Shown here in pieces: positions 33,637 to 42,592 of a stretch of 64,000 bases of DNA. Both the position numbers and the translations under genes were made by a program. The notes under the pieces were generated by a model that saw only the letters and a program-made list of their open reading frames with translations, ran no database searches and was not told the origin of the DNA. Source of the DNA: Flavobacteriales bacterium (GTDB lineage Bacteria > Bacteroidota > Bacteroidia > Flavobacteriales > Flavobacteriaceae); contig JABMNH010000071.1 of NCBI GenBank assembly GCA_013205245.1, forward strand, positions 1 to 64,000, in the 5' to 3' direction. Numbering within the stretch: position 1 is the stretch's first letter; every line of letters begins with the position of its first letter.

Positions 33637-34338
33637 TTATAAATTTAAATAGTTATGTAATTCGGCTATTTTTTCTGGCTTATTAAAAACTCCGCCATAA
33701 TAGCATGTAACGGTTGCGGATGAATCATCTTTAATTCCTCTAGAAGCCACGCACAAATGTTTTGCATCAATAATTACTGCAATGTCTTCTGTTTCTAAAA
33801 TTGTTGCCAATTCTCTCGCAATTTGATTTGTTAATCGTTCTTGCACTTGTGGTCTATTAGCAAAATATTGTACAATTCTATTAATTTTTGAAAGTCCAAT
33901 TACTTTTCCAGATGAAACATAGGCCACGTGTACTTTACCAAAAATTGGCACAAAATGATGCTCACAATTTGAATAAAACTGAATATTTTTTTCAACCAAC
34001 ATTTGATTGTATTTATATTTATTATCAAACAAAGCAATTTTCGGTTTGTTAGCAGGATTTAAACCTGAAAATATTTCATCAATATACATTTTAGCAACTC
34101 TTTTTGGAGTTCCTTTTAAAGAGTCATCGTTTAAATCAAGCCCCATAACTTCCATTATTTGAGCAAATAAACCCGCTATTTTCTCTTTCTTTTCTGTGTC
34201 AGAAATATCAAAAGCAGTTTCTGTTAATGGTGTATCTATTCCTGTATATAAATGATCATCACCAATTTCTTCCATTGTAAAATTTTCTAATTGATTCCCA
34301 TTAGTAGGGAATTTCAACAAAGTTTCTGGGTGTTTCAT
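33637..34338 (-). CDS. folE: GTP cyclohydrolase I
   Basis: Converts GTP to 7,8-dihydroneopterin triphosphate, entry to folate and pterins. Zinc and catalytic residues are present: SNCEHHFVPIFGKVHVAY and KHLCVASRGIKD. The frame starts at 34338, overlapping queD by 38 bp, but an ATG at 34275 (MEEIGDD) is equally plausible as the start because similarity begins there. Length is 233 or 212. Its place in a photoprotection operon fits a supply of methenyl-tetrahydrofolate, a usual photolyase antenna. Confidence 0.93.
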   Translation of the reverse strand: MKHPETLLKFPTNGNQLENFTMEEIGDDHLYTGIDTPLTETAFDISDTEKKEKIAGLFAQIMEVMGLDLNDDSLKGTPKRVAKMYIDEIFSGLNPANKPKIALFDNKYKYNQMLVEKNIQFYSNCEHHFVPIFGKVHVAYVSSGKVIGLSKINRIVQYFANRPQVQERLTNQIARELATILETEDIAVIIDAKHLCVASRGIKDDSSATVTCYYGGVFNKPEKIAELHNYLNL

Positions 34339-34714
34339 AAAGTTTTATTTTTAGTTCGTATTGTTTTTCAATTAATGGTCTTATAATCCTATAAATAACC
34401 ATTGCAATGTTTTCTGCAGTTGGATTTAAATTTTTAAATTCTTCTACGTCCATATTTAAATTTTTATGGTCAAATTTTTCAAGAACGTTTATTTTAATTA
34501 AGTCGGATAACATTTTAGTATCTATAACATAGCCTGTATCTTCATTAATAAATCCAATTACTTTAACCTCTAATTCATAATTATGACCGTGATAATTTGG
34601 ATTATTGCATTTACCAAAAACACCTCTATTTTGTTCATCAGACCAATTCTTATTGTGTAATCTGTGAGCAGCATTAAAATGTTCTCTTCTAGTAACAGCA
34701 GTTTTTAAGTTCAC
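34301..34714 (-). CDS. 6-pyruvoyl-tetrahydropterin synthase / QueD family protein
   Basis: 137 residues. Zinc histidines are visible in FNAAHRLHN and NYHGHNYELEV, and the catalytic region in the FDHKNLN and ETPRNFVEIPY segments. The family forms 6-carboxy- or 6-pyruvoyl-tetrahydropterin from the FolE product. Start codon is GTG at 34714 (no ATG in reach). It is the first gene of the operon, 11 bp from a GTTTAA-N16-TTAAAC dyad. Linkage to folE and photolyase rather than other queuosine genes suggests pterin synthesis. Confidence 0.88.
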   Translation of the reverse strand: MNLKTAVTRREHFNAAHRLHNKNWSDEQNRGVFGKCNNPNYHGHNYELEVKVIGFINEDTGYVIDTKMLSDLIKINVLEKFDHKNLNMDVEEFKNLNPTAENIAMVIYRIIRPLIEKQYELKIKLYETPRNFVEIPY

Positions 34715-34724
34715 ATTTATTATT

Positions 34725-34752
34725 GTTTAACTTTTATATCACAATATTAAAC
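34725..34752 (-). promoter_or_regulatory. light-island dyad 1 (queD-folE promoter)
   Basis: GTTTAA (34725-34730) and TTAAAC (34747-34752), separated by exactly 16 nt, just upstream of queD. Same half sites and same spacing as at 34848, 41558 and 42506. Inferred operator of the MerR/CarH-like regulator. Confidence 0.75.
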
Positions 34753-34847
34753 ATTTTATTTGTTTTTAAAATAAAACACACATTTCTTTTATTTATTATA
34801 TAATAGCTTTTAATTATAGTAATTCATTTTATATGCAATTATTTTTT

Positions 34848-34875
34848 GTTTAATTTACATATCGTATTATTAAAC
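34848..34875 (+). promoter_or_regulatory. light-island dyad 2 (DUF2867 gene promoter)
   Basis: GTTTAA (34848-34853) and TTAAAC (34870-34875) with 16 nt between them, ending 13 bp before the ATG at 34889. Flanking bases (TTTT before, AAT after) also match the other sites. It sits 95 bp from dyad 1 in the same divergent gap. Confidence 0.75.
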
Positions 34876-34888
34876 AATTACAAACAAC

Positions 34889-36310
34889 ATGAAAATTCTT
34901 GTTACAGGATCAACTGGTTATATTGGAAAACGATTAATACCTCTATTATTAAATGAAGGTCATATGATTGTTTGTTCTGTAAGAGACATATCCAGAACTA
35001 TTAAACACAACGAAGATGAGCATATAGAAATTGTTGAAGCTGATTTTTTAAAGCATGAAACATTACAAAATATTCCTAAGGATATAGATATAGCTTATTA
35101 TTTAATACATTCAATGTCTAATTCTTCAACCGAATTTCATTCCTTAGAAGAAAAATGTGCTCAAAACTTTAAAAATTGTATTGAAAACACTTCGGCAAAA
35201 CAAGTTATTTATTTAAGCGGAATTACCAATGACACCAAACTTTCAAAACATTTATTGTCTAGAAAAAATGTAGAAAGCATTTTACAATCAAACACCTATG
35301 CACTAACAACTTTTAAAGCAGGTATTATTGTTGGCTCAGGAAGTTCTTCATTTGAAATTATAAGAGATTTAGTTGAAAAATTACCTGTAATGATTGCTCC
35401 TAAATGGCTGAACACTAAAACACAACCTATTGCTATAAGAGATGTTTTAAATTTTTTATTTAGCGCAATTGGAAATGAAAAATTATATAATCAATCTTTT
35501 GATATATTTGGTCCAGAAATACTAACTTATCATGAAATGTTACTTGAATTCGCAAAAATTAGATGTCTTAAAAGATATATTTTTACGGTTCCAATAATGA
35601 CTCCAAAGTTATCATCTTATTGGCTCTATTTTGTAACATCAACGTCCTATAAACTAGCATCTTCATTAGTAAATAGTATGGGTATTGAAATTATTGGAAA
35701 ACCCAGTAACATTAATCAATTATTAAAAGTGGAACCTATTTCGTATAAAGAAGCTGTAAAACTTGCATTTCTAATTATTGAACAAAATAGTATTGTATCA
35801 AGCTGGAAAGATTCATTTGTCAGCGGTCGTTTACAGCATAAAACACACGAATATATAAATGTTCCAACCTATGGATGCTTTATAGATAAAAAACAACGAG
35901 CAGTTAAAAATGCTGAATTAACTTTGAATAAAATTTGGGCTATTGGTGGAGAAAATGGCTGGTATTATGGTAATTTTTTATGGAAATTAAGAGGTTTTAC
36001 CGATAAAGTTTTTGGCGGAATTGGTTTAAGAAGAGGACGAACAAATCCAACAGAACTTAATATTGGTGATTCCCTCGATTTTTGGCGTGTAATTTATGCC
36101 GATAAAAAACAGAAAAGATTGTTATTATATGCTGAAATGAAATTGCCTGGGGAAGCATGGTTAGAATTTAAAATTGAAGACAACATATTGCATCAAACTG
36201 CTACTTTCAGACCAAAAGGTATTGCAGGACGCCTGTACTGGCTTTCAGTTATACCATTTCACTGGTTTGTATTTAATGGTATGATTTCAAAATTGGCAGA
36301 ACCTAGTTAA
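34889..36310 (+). CDS. NAD(P)-binding protein with DUF2867 domain
   Basis: 473 residues. The N-terminal atypical SDR Rossmann domain (ILVTGSTGYIGKRLIPLLLNEG at 3-24) is followed by a C-terminal DUF2867 domain (about 320-473; GGENGWYYGNFLWKLRGFTDKVFGG, then LPGEAWLEFKI). Homologues with both domains recur in light-induced gene clusters with photolyase, but their substrate is unknown. It is the only plus-strand gene of the island, has its own dyad, and its last 8 bp overlap the convergent photolyase gene. Confidence 0.85.
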   Translation: MKILVTGSTGYIGKRLIPLLLNEGHMIVCSVRDISRTIKHNEDEHIEIVEADFLKHETLQNIPKDIDIAYYLIHSMSNSSTEFHSLEEKCAQNFKNCIENTSAKQVIYLSGITNDTKLSKHLLSRKNVESILQSNTYALTTFKAGIIVGSGSSSFEIIRDLVEKLPVMIAPKWLNTKTQPIAIRDVLNFLFSAIGNEKLYNQSFDIFGPEILTYHEMLLEFAKIRCLKRYIFTVPIMTPKLSSYWLYFVTSTSYKLASSLVNSMGIEIIGKPSNINQLLKVEPISYKEAVKLAFLIIEQNSIVSSWKDSFVSGRLQHKTHEYINVPTYGCFIDKKQRAVKNAELTLNKIWAIGGENGWYYGNFLWKLRGFTDKVFGGIGLRRGRTNPTELNIGDSLDFWRVIYADKKQKRLLLYAEMKLPGEAWLEFKIEDNILHQTATFRPKGIAGRLYWLSVIPFHWFVFNGMISKLAEPS

Positions 36311-37586
36311 ACAACGCTTTTTTTAACACCGTTAAATACCGTTCTCTCGCAAATTTATGTTCCACAATTTCGGGAGTTTCCTTATAATTGGGATTCCACT
36401 TTTTAATATATTTAAAATCTGGATCAAACTTTTGTTGTTGAGTAAATGGATTAAAAACCCTAAAATAAGGAGCCGCATCACAACCAGTACCAGCAACCCA
36501 TTGCCAGTTTCCATTATTGGCAGACAGTTCAAAATCTAATAACTTTTCAGCAAAATAAGCTTCACCCCAACGCCAATCAATTAATAAATGCTTAATTAAA
36601 AAACTTGCTACTATCATTCTAACTCTGTTATGCATATAACCAGTTTCATTTAATTGTCGCATTCCTGCATCAACAATTGGATATCCGGTTTTACCTTCAC
36701 ACCATAATTTAAATTCAGATTCATTATTTCTCCATTGAATAAAATTGTATTTCGATTTAAAATTTTCATTAACAACTTTTGGAAAATGATAGATAATTTG
36801 CATAAAAAACTCACGCCAAATTAACTCGCTTGTAAATGTAGCATCAACTTTTATTGTAAAATCAACTAACTTTCTAACACTTATTAACCCAAAACGCAAG
36901 TGGACTGATAGATTTGATGTTTCTACGGAAGGAATATCTCTGGTTTTTACATAATTTGAAATACATGAATCATTTATTGGCTTAACTTTCATTGAAGATT
37001 TTACAAAACCAATATCAGACAAGTTTGGAAATGTAAAAGCAGCTTTTAAAAAATTCTCTTTTAATGTTTCAGAAGAAAATTTTTGAAGGTTCCCATTGTA
37101 ATATTTCTGCAACCATTTATTTTTATATGGAGTATAAACAGTATAAGGCAAACCATCATTTTTTACAATTTCAGCTTCTTCAAAAATTACCTGATCTTTA
37201 AATGATTTAAACTCGACTCCTTTTTCTAAAAAAAGAGATTCTAATTTGCCATCCCTTTTAATAGCGTAAGGCTCATAATCCTTATTTATATAAACTTCCT
37301 TTATCGTATAATTTTCCAGTAACTTTTTCCAAACTTCTAAAACAGTTCCTTTTTCAATTTTAACAGCACTACCTATTTTAAGCAGTTCTATATTTATAGC
37401 ATTTAAAGTTTCATAAATAAAAGAAACTCTAGCATCATTTTTTGGAAGATCGTTTAGAATTTCTTCATCAAAAATAAAGATTGGTAGCACTTTGTAACCA
37501 GATTGTAAGGCATGATACAATCCGCAATTATCATGCAATCTCAAATCTCTTCTAAACCAAAAAATGGCAATTTCATTTTTATTCAT
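36303..37586 (-). CDS. phr: deoxyribodipyrimidine photolyase / cryptochrome family
   Basis: Light-driven repair of UV pyrimidine dimers. The N-terminal antenna domain starts IAIFWFRRDLRLHDN. The FAD domain has the binding stretch, LIWREFFMQIIYHFP, NETGYMHNRVRMIVASFL, and the electron-path signature SANNGNWQWVAGTGCDAAPYFR. Length is 427 from the ATG at 37586 (the frame also opens at a TTG at 37595). It is the last gene of the carotenoid operon, 9 bp after the lycopene cyclase stop, and overlaps the convergent DUF2867 gene by 8 bp. Confidence 0.94.
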   Translation of the reverse strand: MNKNEIAIFWFRRDLRLHDNCGLYHALQSGYKVLPIFIFDEEILNDLPKNDARVSFIYETLNAINIELLKIGSAVKIEKGTVLEVWKKLLENYTIKEVYINKDYEPYAIKRDGKLESLFLEKGVEFKSFKDQVIFEEAEIVKNDGLPYTVYTPYKNKWLQKYYNGNLQKFSSETLKENFLKAAFTFPNLSDIGFVKSSMKVKPINDSCISNYVKTRDIPSVETSNLSVHLRFGLISVRKLVDFTIKVDATFTSELIWREFFMQIIYHFPKVVNENFKSKYNFIQWRNNESEFKLWCEGKTGYPIVDAGMRQLNETGYMHNRVRMIVASFLIKHLLIDWRWGEAYFAEKLLDFELSANNGNWQWVAGTGCDAAPYFRVFNPFTQQQKFDPDFKYIKKWNPNYKETPEIVEHKFARERYLTVLKKALFN

Positions 37587-37595
37587 AAACTTCAA

Positions 37596-38279
37596 TTAAT
37601 TGAATACTTTTTTAAACTTTTCAATTAAAATTAAATTAGCAAAAAGCATACTAAACGCATAAAAAGCATCTTCTATAGGCACTGTTCCAATTCTAAAACC
37701 TAAATTTTCAGCATTGTTATACCAAACAACTTCCTGATGAATAAAACTACCTGTTAAAATTCCGTTTACAATAAAAAATGGAATTAATATCACCAAAAAA
37801 GTAAGATAGAATTTTTGTAAGATCATGTTTTTAGCAAAAAAAGAATAGGCTAACAAACCCGCAAAAACAGAGAAATTCACAAGCGTATACCATTTATCAG
37901 TATTTAAAATTAATACAACTACTGAAATAAAAAATAATACAATTGTTAGATAACTTGTCACTTTTTTTGACAATTCTAGGTTCGAGAAAAAATAGCCTAC
38001 TGCATAATGTGTAAAAATACTTGCATAAGGAATACAAATAAAAAATAATATTTCTTCTAACGGAAGCCCAAAAATGGTGAAATTAACGTGATACGTAGGA
38101 TTAAAACCCCAAACACCAATTTTGGTGAAAATAACATCCCAAACTAAAAAAAAGAACGCAACAATAAAAAGAGACAAAAAAACCGATTTCCACCATCTAA
38201 TGAAACGCATTTTTTTTTCAAAACTATAGGCAAATGGAACCATAAATGACGTGATATTTAAAATTAAATAAAGACTCAT
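37596..38279 (-). CDS. crtY: lycopene beta-cyclase, CrtYcd-type fused integral membrane form
   Basis: 227 residues with about seven membrane helices and two cyclase modules in one chain. Each carries the acidic motif: PLEEILFFICIP in the first and PIEDAFYAFSM in the second (PxE-E/D). This heterodimer-derived type closes both ends of lycopene to give beta-carotene. Start overlaps the crtZ stop by one base (TAATG). It makes the substrate of the hydroxylase encoded just upstream. Confidence 0.9.
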   Translation of the reverse strand: MSLYLILNITSFMVPFAYSFEKKMRFIRWWKSVFLSLFIVAFFFLVWDVIFTKIGVWGFNPTYHVNFTIFGLPLEEILFFICIPYASIFTHYAVGYFFSNLELSKKVTSYLTIVLFFISVVVLILNTDKWYTLVNFSVFAGLLAYSFFAKNMILQKFYLTFLVILIPFFIVNGILTGSFIHQEVVWYNNAENLGFRIGTVPIEDAFYAFSMLFANLILIEKFKKVFN

Positions 38280-38716
38280 TACATATTGAAATATTTAAAA
38301 GGAACAAATAACATTCCAAAACATTCTCCTTCTTCTTTCCCCAAATGTTTATGATGAACCATATGTGCTTTTCGCAATCCTACTAAATATTTGTTATTGG
38401 ATTTATTAAACCATTTAAATCGCTTATGAATTAAAACATCGTGCACTAAAAAATAGGCAAGTCCGTAAAAAAATATTCCTAATCCTATAAAAAACAGAAA
38501 ATTTAATCCATCTTGAAATCCGAAATAAAACAATAGAATACTTGGTATAGCAAATACCACAAAAAAAACATCGTTTCTTTCAAACCAATTTTGATATTTG
38601 GGTTGATGATGATCTTCGTGAAAATACCACATTAAACCGTGCATTACATATTTATGTGTAAGCCAAGTTACGCCTTCCATCAATAAAAATGTAACCATTG
38701 TAATAAGTATAAACAT
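38279..38716 (-). CDS. crtZ: beta-carotene hydroxylase (fatty acid hydroxylase superfamily)
   Basis: 145-residue membrane di-iron enzyme with all four histidine clusters: HKYVMHG, HEDHHQP, HDVLIHKRF and HMVHHKHLG. Adds 3- and 3'-hydroxyls to beta-carotene, giving zeaxanthin, the common yellow pigment of marine Flavobacteriaceae. Start overlaps the stop of the upstream unknown gene by one base (TAATG). No ketolase gene (crtW) is present nearby, so zeaxanthin is the predicted end product. Confidence 0.93.
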   Translation of the reverse strand: MFILITMVTFLLMEGVTWLTHKYVMHGLMWYFHEDHHQPKYQNWFERNDVFFVVFAIPSILLFYFGFQDGLNFLFFIGLGIFFYGLAYFLVHDVLIHKRFKWFNKSNNKYLVGLRKAHMVHHKHLGKEEGECFGMLFVPFKYFNM

Positions 38717-39225: not shown

Positions 39226-40065
39226 CTACAATAAATTTAGTTTATACACCACAAAAGATTTAGCTAGCAAACTGATTTTAAGTGGATTTGAAACTCTTAT
39301 TCTTGTGTTCATAATTTTTTCTGAAGGTGTACCTTTTAACTTTTTAAGCAATCTTCTATAATAAATATAAGCTGTATAAACTCCGAATTTTGCTTCTAGA
39401 GGCAACATTTTTATTCCTTTAAATGCTTCATGAAAATCTTCTTCAATTTCATCAATAATTTTATTTTTTGCTGAAATATCCAATTTTTTCAAATCTATTC
39501 CTGGGAAATAAGAACGATTTAACACTTCATAATCATCTTTTAAATCTCTTAAAAAGTTTACTTTTTGAAAAGCAGAACCCAAACGCATCGCATAACTTTT
39601 TAAATGCTCATATCTTTCTACATCTCCATTAACAAAAACTTTCAAACACATTAAACCTACAACATCTGCCGAACCATAAATATAATTTTCATATTCAGCT
39701 TTTGTTTCATAATCGTTTTTATTTAAATCAAGTTTCATACTTGTTAAAAAAGCCTGAATTAAATCGTCTGTAATTTTGTGTTTTTTAACTGTAAGCTGAA
39801 AACTATTTAAAATAGGATTTAAACTTATGTTAGCTGCGAAAGCCTTGTAATAGTCTTGTTCAAACTCATTCAATAATTTTTCTTTTTCATAACCGTGAAA
39901 AGAATCTACAATTTCATCGGCCAACCTTACAAAAGCATAAATACTATAAATATCTTCTCTAATTTTAGGAGCCAGCATTTTTACAGCTAATGAAAATGAA
40001 GTACTGTATTTTTTTGTAACCAATTTACTACAAGCAAATCCGGTTTGATCAAATAGCTGTTTCAT
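39226..40065 (-). CDS. crtB: 15-cis-phytoene synthase
   Basis: Condenses two geranylgeranyl diphosphates to phytoene. Both aspartate-rich magnesium motifs are present (RLADEIVDSF and NFLRDLKDDYE), plus YAMRLGSAFQKVNFLRD. I chose the ATG at 40065 (MKQLFDQTGF), 13 bp after the crtI stop; an upstream frame extension overlaps crtI without similarity. Length 279. No crtE (GGPP synthase) in the cluster, so the precursor must come from an isoprenoid gene elsewhere. Confidence 0.93.
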   Translation of the reverse strand: MKQLFDQTGFACSKLVTKKYSTSFSLAVKMLAPKIREDIYSIYAFVRLADEIVDSFHGYEKEKLLNEFEQDYYKAFAANISLNPILNSFQLTVKKHKITDDLIQAFLTSMKLDLNKNDYETKAEYENYIYGSADVVGLMCLKVFVNGDVERYEHLKSYAMRLGSAFQKVNFLRDLKDDYEVLNRSYFPGIDLKKLDISAKNKIIDEIEEDFHEAFKGIKMLPLEAKFGVYTAYIYYRRLLKKLKGTPSEKIMNTRIRVSNPLKISLLAKSFVVYKLNLL

Positions 40066-40078
40066 AATTTTTTTTGAT

Positions 40079-41554
40079 TCATTTAATTTTAGTAGTAGCA
40101 TTTTTTATCACCATTTGTGACACAATTTTTCCCGAAATTATGGATGGCGGAACGCCAGGTCCTGGAACGGTTAACTGACCGGTAAAAAATAGGTTTTTAA
40201 CTTTTTCGCTTTTTATTTTCGGACGCAAAAAAGCCGTTTGTGTTAAGGTATTTGCTAATCCGTAAGCGTTTCCTTTGTATGAATTATAATCTGCAATAAA
40301 ATCGTTTACACAATATGATTCTTTTAAAATAATTGCATCCCTAACTTTTTGGTTTGTCAGTTTTTCTAATCGCTCCATAATTTTTACAAAATAACGCTCC
40401 CTAATTTCTGGAGTATCTTCAATTCCTGAAGCAATTGGAATTAAAAAAGTAGCAGCTTCCTTACCAATTGGAGCAAAACTAGTATCGGTTATACTTGGGA
40501 AACTCGCGTAAAAAAGCGGATCCTTTGGCCATTTTGGCGTATCATATATATCTATTGCGTGCACATCAAAATCGGTATCAAAAAACAACGTATGATGTGA
40601 AATATTCTTTATTTTTTTATTGAAGCCAACATAGAAGAGCAATGAAGAAGGCGCAAATGTTTTTCTTTCCCAATAATTTTCAGAATACTTTCGATATTTT
40701 TTATCTAACAAGGTTTCAGAATGATGATAATCTGCACCACTTACAACAATATCAGCCGGTAAAAATTCATCATTAACCTTTACTCCTATAGCTTTTCCAT
40801 TTTCAACAACAATTTTTCCAACAATTACATTTGTTTTTATGGTAACACCTAATTCAGTTGCTAATGACACAAAACCTTTAACAACTTCAAACATTCCACC
40901 CTTTGGATGCCAAGTTCCTAAACCAAAATCGGCATAATTCATAAAACTGTAAAAACTTGGAGTATTGGAAGGTTTTGCACCTAAAAATAATACAGGAAAT
41001 TCTAAAATTTGAATTAGCTTTTTGCTTTTAATATTGGCTCTAACTTCTGTACTGATACTTTTAAAAAACTGATTCACATTTTTAATGGTATCAAAAGTGA
41101 TTAGTTCTGTTATAGAATTTCCTGGCTTATATACCATATTATTCACCGCAATTTCATAATTGAATTTTGCAGCTTTTAAAAATTTTTTCAAATAAACGGA
41201 GCTTCCTTTTTCTTCTTTTTCAAAAACAGCATAAATTTCTTCTAACCTATCAGAAATAGTTATAGAATTTAACACATCAAAATATACCTGATATGCAGGT
41301 GCTAGTTTTTCTAAATCGTAAAAATCGCTTGGTTTTTTATTGAAGTCTGCAAAGAATTTTTCAAATACATCTGGCATCCAATACCAAGTTGGGCCAATAT
41401 CAAATTTAAAACCATCTTTTTGAAGTACACGCGCTCTTCCTCCTACGCTATCGTTTTTTTCAAGAATTGTAACATCATAACCTTCTTTTGCTAAATAACA
41501 TGAAGCTGATAATGATGAGAATCCTGAGCCTATTATAATTATTTTTTCCTTCAT
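40079..41554 (-). CDS. crtI: phytoene desaturase
   Basis: FAD-dependent desaturase turning phytoene into lycopene. N-terminal dinucleotide fold IIIIGSGFSSLSASCYLAKEG, then NDSVGGRARVLQKDGFKFDIGPTWYWMPD; C-terminal signature TGQLTVPGPGVPPSIISG. Length is 491 from the ATG at 41554. That ATG is only 4 bp from the GTTTAA half of the promoter dyad and 10 bp from a TATATTTG -7 box (41564-41571, minus strand), so the leader is extremely short or absent. First gene of crtI-crtB-unknown-crtZ-crtY-phr. Confidence 0.95.
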   Translation of the reverse strand: MKEKIIIIGSGFSSLSASCYLAKEGYDVTILEKNDSVGGRARVLQKDGFKFDIGPTWYWMPDVFEKFFADFNKKPSDFYDLEKLAPAYQVYFDVLNSITISDRLEEIYAVFEKEEKGSSVYLKKFLKAAKFNYEIAVNNMVYKPGNSITELITFDTIKNVNQFFKSISTEVRANIKSKKLIQILEFPVLFLGAKPSNTPSFYSFMNYADFGLGTWHPKGGMFEVVKGFVSLATELGVTIKTNVIVGKIVVENGKAIGVKVNDEFLPADIVVSGADYHHSETLLDKKYRKYSENYWERKTFAPSSLLFYVGFNKKIKNISHHTLFFDTDFDVHAIDIYDTPKWPKDPLFYASFPSITDTSFAPIGKEAATFLIPIASGIEDTPEIRERYFVKIMERLEKLTNQKVRDAIILKESYCVNDFIADYNSYKGNAYGLANTLTQTAFLRPKIKSEKVKNLFFTGQLTVPGPGVPPSIISGKIVSQMVIKNATTKIK

Positions 41555-41557
41555 TTT

Positions 41558-41585
41558 GTTTAACAAATATAAAATAATATTAAAC
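41558..41585 (-). promoter_or_regulatory. light-island dyad 3 with -7 box (crtI promoter)
   Basis: GTTTAA (41558-41563) and TTAAAC (41580-41585) flank exactly 16 nt. On the minus strand the spacer ends in TATATTTG (41571-41564), an exact Bacteroidota -7 box abutting the downstream half site. A protein bound here would cover the promoter. Confidence 0.8.
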
Positions 41586-41608
41586 AAAATTAAATTATTT
41601 AAAAAAAA

Positions 41609-42511
41609 TTATAAAATATTTAACAACTCTAAAGGAGACTTAAACACTTTCATTTGAGATAGATCAACTAAATTTTCATCTAATAAAGCAGTTTTAACGC
41701 CTAAAACCCATAAAATATCTTTACTGTTTTTTAAGACTTTTGAATTAACTTCTTCTAAATAGTTCTCAATAGTTTCTTTTGAAGGCTCAACAGTTAAATA
41801 CGTAACAAAACAAATGTTATCATACACTTTTTGAAGATCATTTAAATTTTCAACAGGCACACTTTGTCCTAAATAAATAGAATTATGGCCGTGAAATAAC
41901 AACTCAAAATGCAAGTACAACAAACCAAGTTCATGTATTTCATTCAAAGGCAAATACAACACAAACTTTTGTGCTTCATTTTCAGATTGTGTTACCTGAA
42001 GTTTTTCAATATTAATATGAATTTTTTGTTTTATTAAATTGGTAATAAAATGTTCATGAGCTGGTGTTATTGTGTTTATTTGCCATAAAATACCAATCTC
42101 ATTTAGAAAAGGCATAAATATTTTAGTAAAAATAGTTCTAAAATTAAATTGCTGTATTAAACCAGTATAGATTTTGTTGAATAAAATTTCATCAAAATTT
42201 AACATTGCTAATTTTAAAGAATTTGCAGCTTGGTTTTGAAAACCATCTTTAAAAATTAACTCTTTAACCTGCTGTTCCAAGCCTTTTGCAGACAAGGCTG
42301 CAATTTTGGATATTTTAAGGCCATTATTATTTAATAAAGAGATATTCAATATTTTTTGTAAACTCTCTATATCATAATATCTTATGTTGGAATCTGTTCT
42401 ATTAGGCTGAAACAAATTGTATCTTTTTTCCCAAATACGAATAGTATGCGCTTTAATTCCTGAAAAATTTTCAAGATCTTTAATTGTGAATTCTGTTTTT
42501 ATATTGTTCAA
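41609..42511 (-). CDS. MerR-family regulator with cobalamin-binding photoreceptor domain (CarH/LitR-like)
   Basis: 300 residues. The MerR winged helix (residues 8-76, FTIKDLENFSGIKAHTIRIWEKR) is followed by a helical cap domain and a Rossmann-like B12-binding domain. Cap motif W143-x9-E153-H154 and cobalt-ligand motif E191-I-H193-E-L-G196 match CarH, as does SIYLGQSVP. CarH proteins bind adenosylcobalamin, repress in the dark and release DNA in light. The residue after W143 is Gln, where Thermus CarH has His132. Start is TTG at 42511, which coincides with a half site of dyad 4, implying autoregulation. It lies ahead of crtI. Confidence 0.9.
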   Translation of the reverse strand: MNNIKTEFTIKDLENFSGIKAHTIRIWEKRYNLFQPNRTDSNIRYYDIESLQKILNISLLNNNGLKISKIAALSAKGLEQQVKELIFKDGFQNQAANSLKLAMLNFDEILFNKIYTGLIQQFNFRTIFTKIFMPFLNEIGILWQINTITPAHEHFITNLIKQKIHINIEKLQVTQSENEAQKFVLYLPLNEIHELGLLYLHFELLFHGHNSIYLGQSVPVENLNDLQKVYDNICFVTYLTVEPSKETIENYLEEVNSKVLKNSKDILWVLGVKTALLDENLVDLSQMKVFKSPLELLNIL

Positions 42512-42533
42512 TTTTTACTAGTATTAATTAAAC
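42506..42533 (-). promoter_or_regulatory. light-island dyad 4 (regulator's own promoter)
   Basis: GTTCAA (42506-42511, one mismatch) and TTAAAC (42528-42533) with the same 16-nt spacing. The degenerate half overlaps the TTG start codon of the regulator. A weaker autoregulatory site is a reasonable reading. Confidence 0.65.
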
Positions 42534-42592
42534 AAATATATAAAATTTATTATTAATCAAACAAATTTCAAAAAATGTACACGGCTACATAT

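Follow-up and report, generated by a model that had tools for sequence, protein, structure and literature searches.

A CarH/LitR-like regulator in a flavobacterial carotenoid cluster with Gln at the position of Thermus His132

CarH/LitR of Thermus thermophilus (3WHP, 5C8D–5C8F) joins a MerR DNA-binding domain to a four-helix bundle bearing a W-x9-EH adenosyl-cap motif and to an ExHxxG lower ligand, and it controls carotenoid genes; the flavobacterial regulator described here shares these features, the last by prediction. The His after the cap Trp, from which the bis-His light state of CarH arises, is ascribed to ‘many’, not all, CarH proteins (PMC9304148), so a His132-type residue is not a strict definer of CarH. 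The adenosyl group of CarH is released as 4′,5′-anhydroadenosine (PMC10442372), and return to the dark form therefore requires fresh AdoCbl.

Three other systems are close enough for comparison. The photocobilin SasPcob (8J2W/8J2X) has the Trp-Gln cap and the EH residues of the regulator and a base-off/His-on AdoCbl site like that predicted for it, but it is not a MerR transcription factor and carries a biliverdin-binding globin domain. CtMerR of Chloracidobacterium thermophilum (8JBS/8JBT) is likewise an AdoCbl photoreceptor of the MerR family that lacks His at position 132; unlike the regulator, it has Arg there instead of Gln, and a published carotenoid target for it was not found. Class II LitR proteins of Pseudomonas (PplR/PmlR) belong to the same LitR family, have photolyase, SDR and folE genes among their light-inducible targets and also lack a detectable PF02310 domain, but they are B12-independent and work with a short LOV protein. 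In flavobacteria, a MerR gene before crtI has been mentioned, unstudied, in PMC4732338 and PMC11855829, and the crt genes of Chryseobacterium lacus are light-induced (PMC7064467). No published light or B12 experiment on the flavobacterial clade was found in the searchable literature.

The regulator and its predicted cofactor site

The regulator gene lies at 41,609–42,511 (reverse strand) of the window, the whole 64,000-nucleotide stretch of Flavobacteriales contig JABMNH010000071.1 that was analysed. It is a real open reading frame of 300 amino acids with a TTG start at 42,511, and its orthologues have TTG or ATG at the same start position. Pfam detects PF13411 (MerR_1, MerR-type DNA-binding domain; 6.3e-12) and B12-binding_2 (PF02607) in the product. 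PF02310 (B12-binding) was undetected in the regulator by Pfam and is at most weakly seen in its relatives (4/54, best E 0.011). A phmmer comparison with PDB sequences aligns residues 8–228 with T. thermophilus CarH (3whp/5c8d; E about 3e-11), which upholds the CarH-like assignment made in the sequence-only reading. In this alignment, EIGILWQINTITPAHEHF lies opposite EVGEAWHRGEIGVAEEHL, and LNEIHELG lies opposite PGERHEIG. It follows that W143 corresponds to W131, Q144 to H132, E153/H154 to E141/H142, E191 to E175 and H193 to H177.

All of the residues that the earlier reading had assigned to the cap and lower motifs are therefore where it had placed them. The cap Trp W143 (TGG) and Q144 (CAA, 42,082–42,080) are encoded at 42,080–42,085 (reverse strand), and E153-H154, at 42,050–42,055 (reverse strand), complete the W-x9-EH motif. 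The predicted lower cobalt ligand, E191-I192-H193 (41,933–41,941, reverse strand; Thermus E175-R176-H177), belongs to a D/ExHx2G motif present as E191-x-H193-xx-G196. The regulator differs from Thermus CarH in having Gln at His132, in having Ile192-Ser217 in place of Arg176-Asp201, the residues by which the Thermus dimer is held together, and in an altered Sx(T/V) motif and a GG motif whose first Gly is Leu (LG). Its score against the CarH equivalog NCBIfam NF052513 is 71.2 bits, below the 400-bit cut-off. The signature for light-responsive B12 domains (SignatureFinder: GxxW, EH, GxxH, GxxxP) is likewise incomplete; GILW, EH and GQSVP are present, and NEIH replaces GxxH. Asn takes the place of the GxxH Gly in 73 of 91 relatives, and mining for motifs such as GxxH can overlook this flavobacterial branch.

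The lower (Rossmann) half of the B12 domain is thus divergent at the sequence level. An AlphaFold model built with 54 sequences (pLDDT 87, pTM 0.80) has CarH 5c8f/5c8e as its best PDB matches in Foldseek (5e-13), and its B12 domain gives a TM of about 0.8 to TtCarH and 0.69 to CtMerR. W143, E153, E191 and H193 are invariant in 91/91 flavobacterial orthologues, and positions 152 and 154 are His in 78 and 80 of them, respectively. Moreover, W143 and H193 are kept in all 121 crt-linked homologues. H193 is lost in seven homologues, all without crt neighbours (Fisher 1.7e-5, phylogeny not corrected for), and three of these have lost the cap Trp as well. This distribution suggests joint conservation of the cofactor-site residues wherever crt genes are controlled, with residue 144 not among them. 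Judged from its sequence, the regulator is likely to be an AdoCbl light sensor. The seven homologues from which the lower His is gone (L113, L122, L130, L151, L152, L153 and L156) are probably B12-independent paralogues.

Residue 144 and the predicted light state

The phmmer alignment bears out the earlier observation that Gln144 replaces Thermus His132 directly after the cap Trp. A view of the residue as special to this regulator finds no support among its relatives. Among 91 sampled Flavobacteriaceae orthologues, column 144 is Gln in 87, His in two and Leu in two, and it is Gln in all 80 named relatives (Lutibacter, which supplies four of the closest, Flavobacterium, Winogradskyella, Tenacibaculum, Maribacter and others). 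A private mutation is thereby ruled out, and the Lutibacter matches make that genus the probable source of the window. The column is mixed in 52 class-level homologues from beyond the clade (Gln in 11, Leu in 10, Gly in 9, Met in 5, Ile in 4, and others), and it ranks only 227th of 300 in conservation. On a tree made without column 144, 38 changes are needed at this position, and the three rows with His are three separate changes. The tree and the counts indicate that Gln is inherited and stable within the clade and that His cannot be inferred as the ancestral state. Alignment across Bacteroidota, the check proposed with the earlier reading, thus finds Gln144 to be the ordinary residue of the flavobacterial clade, at a position that is widely variable elsewhere, and finds no His at the equivalent position. 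The nearest extra His of the regulator is H152, opposite Thermus Glu140, in a column that holds His, Asn or Gln among relatives. Crt-linked homologues outside the clade have Gln, Gly, Leu, Ile, Ser, Met, Arg, Ala, Thr, His or Lys at column 144, and this diversity indicates that the carotenoid link is independent of the residue.

The residues known at the His132 site of B12 photoreceptors include Arg in CtMerR, Gln in SasPcob and Tyr in AbDPcob (PMC11796333). Trp-Gln is thus already known from SasPcob, the closest precedent, whose PDB sequence confirms the pair (GVLWQANRWSVAQEH). In its light state, SasPcob (8J2W/8J2X) is a monomer whose Co(III) bears water or hydroxide, and the bis-His domain shift is absent (PMC10979010). 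In one study of Thermus H132A, photolysis gave a 352-nm hydroxo form and most of the protein was still tetrameric, whereas an earlier report, cited in the same paper, says that dissociation occurs (PMC10442372). The need for bis-His ligation in CarH signalling is disputed because these two reports conflict. In light-exposed CtMerR, with Arg at the site, a conserved Glu turns to the cobalt-bound water (PMC11796333).

Together, the SasPcob and H132A data make the earlier proposal that no bis-His product forms through residue 144 likely to be right. The accompanying suggestion of a faster reset is baseless, since recovery of the dark form needs fresh AdoCbl and H132A suggests a weaker light output; the mostly tetrameric state of H132A in the light, as found in one of the two studies, implies that a Gln form might signal poorly. 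The flavobacteria offer a natural experiment on bis-His ligation across much of a family, with the carotenoid role apparently kept. Bacteroidota also encode stand-alone B12-domain proteins, with several matches of 353–372 amino acids; one of them (L155, 1,327–2,394, reverse strand) has Trp-Gln and SasPcob as its best PDB match (3e-23).

Gene cluster, promoter and candidate operator

On the same strand after the regulator, with little or no gap, follow crtI (phytoene desaturase; 40,079–41,554, ATG at 41,554), crtB (phytoene synthase; 39,226–40,101), a small gene, a crtZ-like hydroxylase assigned by context and without a Pfam or NCBIfam match (38,279–38,716), lycopene cyclase (crtY; CarR_dom_SF/Lycopene_cyc; 37,596–38,279) and, directly after it in the same gene run, a DNA photolyase (36,303–37,595), all on the reverse strand. 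Beyond them lie a gene for an SDR/DUF2867 protein (34,889–36,310, forward strand) and the pair ptpS (34,301–34,714) and folE (33,637–34,338), which spans 33,637–34,714 on the reverse strand. Of the 71 named loci that extend far enough, 70 have both crtI and crtB after the regulator, and 12 have a photolyase gene there. Eight sampled genomes from the other family of the same order gave no match.

The regulator promoter contains a Bacteroidota-type −7 element, TAnnTTTG (TATATTTG; 42,533–42,540, reverse strand). In 137 of 158 relatives, this box, followed by TTTAA, lies 21 bp 5′ of the regulator start codon, which itself falls within another conserved stretch, ATGAACAA. Together, the promoter block and this stretch make up an inverted repeat, TTGTTYA-N18-TRAACAA. 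Operator 1 (TTGTTTA-N18-TGAACAA; 42,504–42,535, reverse strand) overlaps the −7 box with its left arm and the start codon with its right arm. Operator 2 (TTGTTTA-N18-TAAACAA; 41,556–41,587, reverse strand) lies between the regulator and crtI, and its right arm abuts another −7 box, TATATTTG (41,571–41,564), just 5′ of the crtI ATG. The mechanically called TTG start of crtI, at 41,587, falls inside operator 2, and the ATG at 41,554 is the likely start. Operator 3 (TTGTTTA-N18-TAAACAA; 34,846–34,877, forward strand) is 12 bp 5′ of the SDR/DUF2867 ATG, and operator 4, with one mismatch (34,723–34,754, reverse strand), precedes ptpS-folE.

The exact repeat occurs three times in the 2.38-Mb assembly, always in the crt cluster, at the regulator, crtI operon and SDR promoters. 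Copies with one mismatch are near the control level genome-wide (20 versus 12), and only the clustered ones are accordingly to be trusted. In the fetched loci, a spacing of 18 accounts for 196 sites and a spacing of 19 for 17, and all other spacings (10 to 29) give 0–2. Where codon 2 of the regulator encodes Asn, it is AAC in all but one case (125 of 126), versus 33% AAC in the remainder of the gene (P 1.5e-58), and among 99 other genes whose second residue is Asn the split is 33 AAC and 66 AAT; this bias points to a constraint on the DNA. Across flavobacteria, the right arm of the repeat runs over the regulator start codon and sets AAC as the second codon. Across 60 genomes of the family, 176 repeat sites were counted versus 20 for a reversed control, with 3.6 sites per genome where the regulator is present (control 0.38), 1.4 where there is only a divergent homologue and 0.6 where there is none (small groups). 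Homologues whose column 144 holds Leu, Ile, Val or Thr also have this repeat nearby, which indicates that the operator is independent of Gln144.

Both arms include TnnACA, which forms the core of the direct repeat used by CarH (PMC9304148). The arms are inverted, the usual arrangement for MerR proteins (PMC8156234), whereas Thermus CarH uses tandem direct repeats (PMC9304148). From this sequence evidence, TTGTTYA-N18-TRAACAA is probably the operator bound by the regulator, and it may be new, as no earlier description was found in the open-licence literature. It provides a handle for testing how light acts on genes in Bacteroidota and might find use in optogenetics. Two other candidates were rejected: tandem 11-bp direct repeats of the CarH type at the regulator promoter, as TGTnnA shows no enrichment at 11-bp multiples, and a pair of direct TTTGTTTRATTAA copies in the window, a pattern not upheld in relatives.

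Elsewhere, the repeat precedes fasciclin-domain genes (the largest group), beta-carotene 15,15′-dioxygenase, folE, SDR, fatty-acid desaturase and other genes, although a few of these assignments may be due to chance. Among the sites in other flavobacteria (L287, L294, L296, L306, L308, L312 and others), the beta-carotene 15,15′-dioxygenase gene stands behind the repeat once, and the fasciclin-domain genes adjoin a gene with tRNA_Me_trans domains.

Proposed mechanism and alternatives

Our main reading, to which we give a probability of roughly 0.62, is that the regulator belongs to the CarH/LitR type and, in an AdoCbl-dependent manner, represses a photoprotection regulon in the dark, its light state being aquo/hydroxo-Co(III). 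Starting from the sequence, conservation, fold, operator and gene set established in the analysis, we infer AdoCbl binding, light sensing, the sign of regulation and the photoproduct as follows. In the dark, AdoCbl would be held between the four-helix bundle (W143, E153, H154) and the Rossmann half, with H193 as the lower ligand. The loaded regulator would bind the inverted TnnACA half-sites of TTGTTYA-N18-TRAACAA and so cover the −7 box or the start at its own gene, crtI-crtB-crtZ-crtY-photolyase, SDR and ptpS-folE. Light would split the Co–C bond and, given Gln144 at the His132 position, would yield water/hydroxide-Co(III)-His193 and not a bis-His product. As in SasPcob, the adenosyl group would be lost and the Glu153-His154 helix would rearrange, which would break the dimer interface and lift repression. 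A wider proposal, which we consider about evenly balanced, is that flavobacteria hold a separate branch of CarH-like light repressors in which a second His is never required. In this branch, a MerR-style inverted repeat of CarH half-sites, overlapping the regulator's own start codon, would mark out a light regulon whose genes serve carotenoid, photolyase, pterin, retinal and fasciclin functions.

Another upper ligand in the light, H154, H152 or E153, would still allow a bis-His-like or Glu-water state. The frequency of His at positions 152 and 154 among the orthologues and the movement of the CtMerR Glu towards the cobalt-bound water (PMC11796333) are in keeping with this idea, but crt-linked relatives replace H152 with Asn or Gln and H154 with Arg, Ser or Gln, and SasPcob, with its own Trp-Gln, shows water or hydroxide; we consider such a ligand improbable. 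Slightly less probable still is that the regulator binds B12 but senses mainly AdoCbl or redox state and not light. Its target set (carotenoids and, in a relative, a redoxin) would also fit oxidative stress. Against this stand the photolyase in the same gene run, the operator shared by folE, SDR and, in relatives, beta-carotene dioxygenase, the light-inducible set of Pseudomonas LitR, which also includes photolyase, SDR and folE genes, and a rhodopsin gene in the genome.

The main rival is a B12-independent regulator of the LitR/CarA type, with a degenerate lower half that holds no cobalamin and with light or redox signals arriving through a partner, as for Pseudomonas class II LitR with short LOV or Myxococcus CarA with CarS. 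The divergent lower half favours it: the regulator shows PF02607 without PF02310, as described for class II LitR, its GG and SxT positions are changed, and CarA retains the lower motif yet is B12-independent (PMC9304148). The invariant W/E/H residues speak against it. CarA has lost the cap Trp, whereas the regulator clade keeps W143 (91/91), E153 and H193, and every crt-linked homologue retains W143 and H193. In class II LitR the B12 domain is limited to its helical half, whereas the regulator model has a Rossmann half that carries His193 and matches CarH. A signature-pattern search of the genome for a short-LOV partner found none. We regard this rival as unlikely, and AdoCbl-dependent dark repression remains the preferred reading. 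The genome also encodes PduO adenosyltransferase, methylmalonyl-CoA mutase and MetH, a gene content that would make it capable of producing AdoCbl. Its methionine synthase reading frame (L031, 337–3,273, reverse strand) carries, between its two B12-binding domains, a DUF559 stretch that resembles an inserted intein or endonuclease domain.
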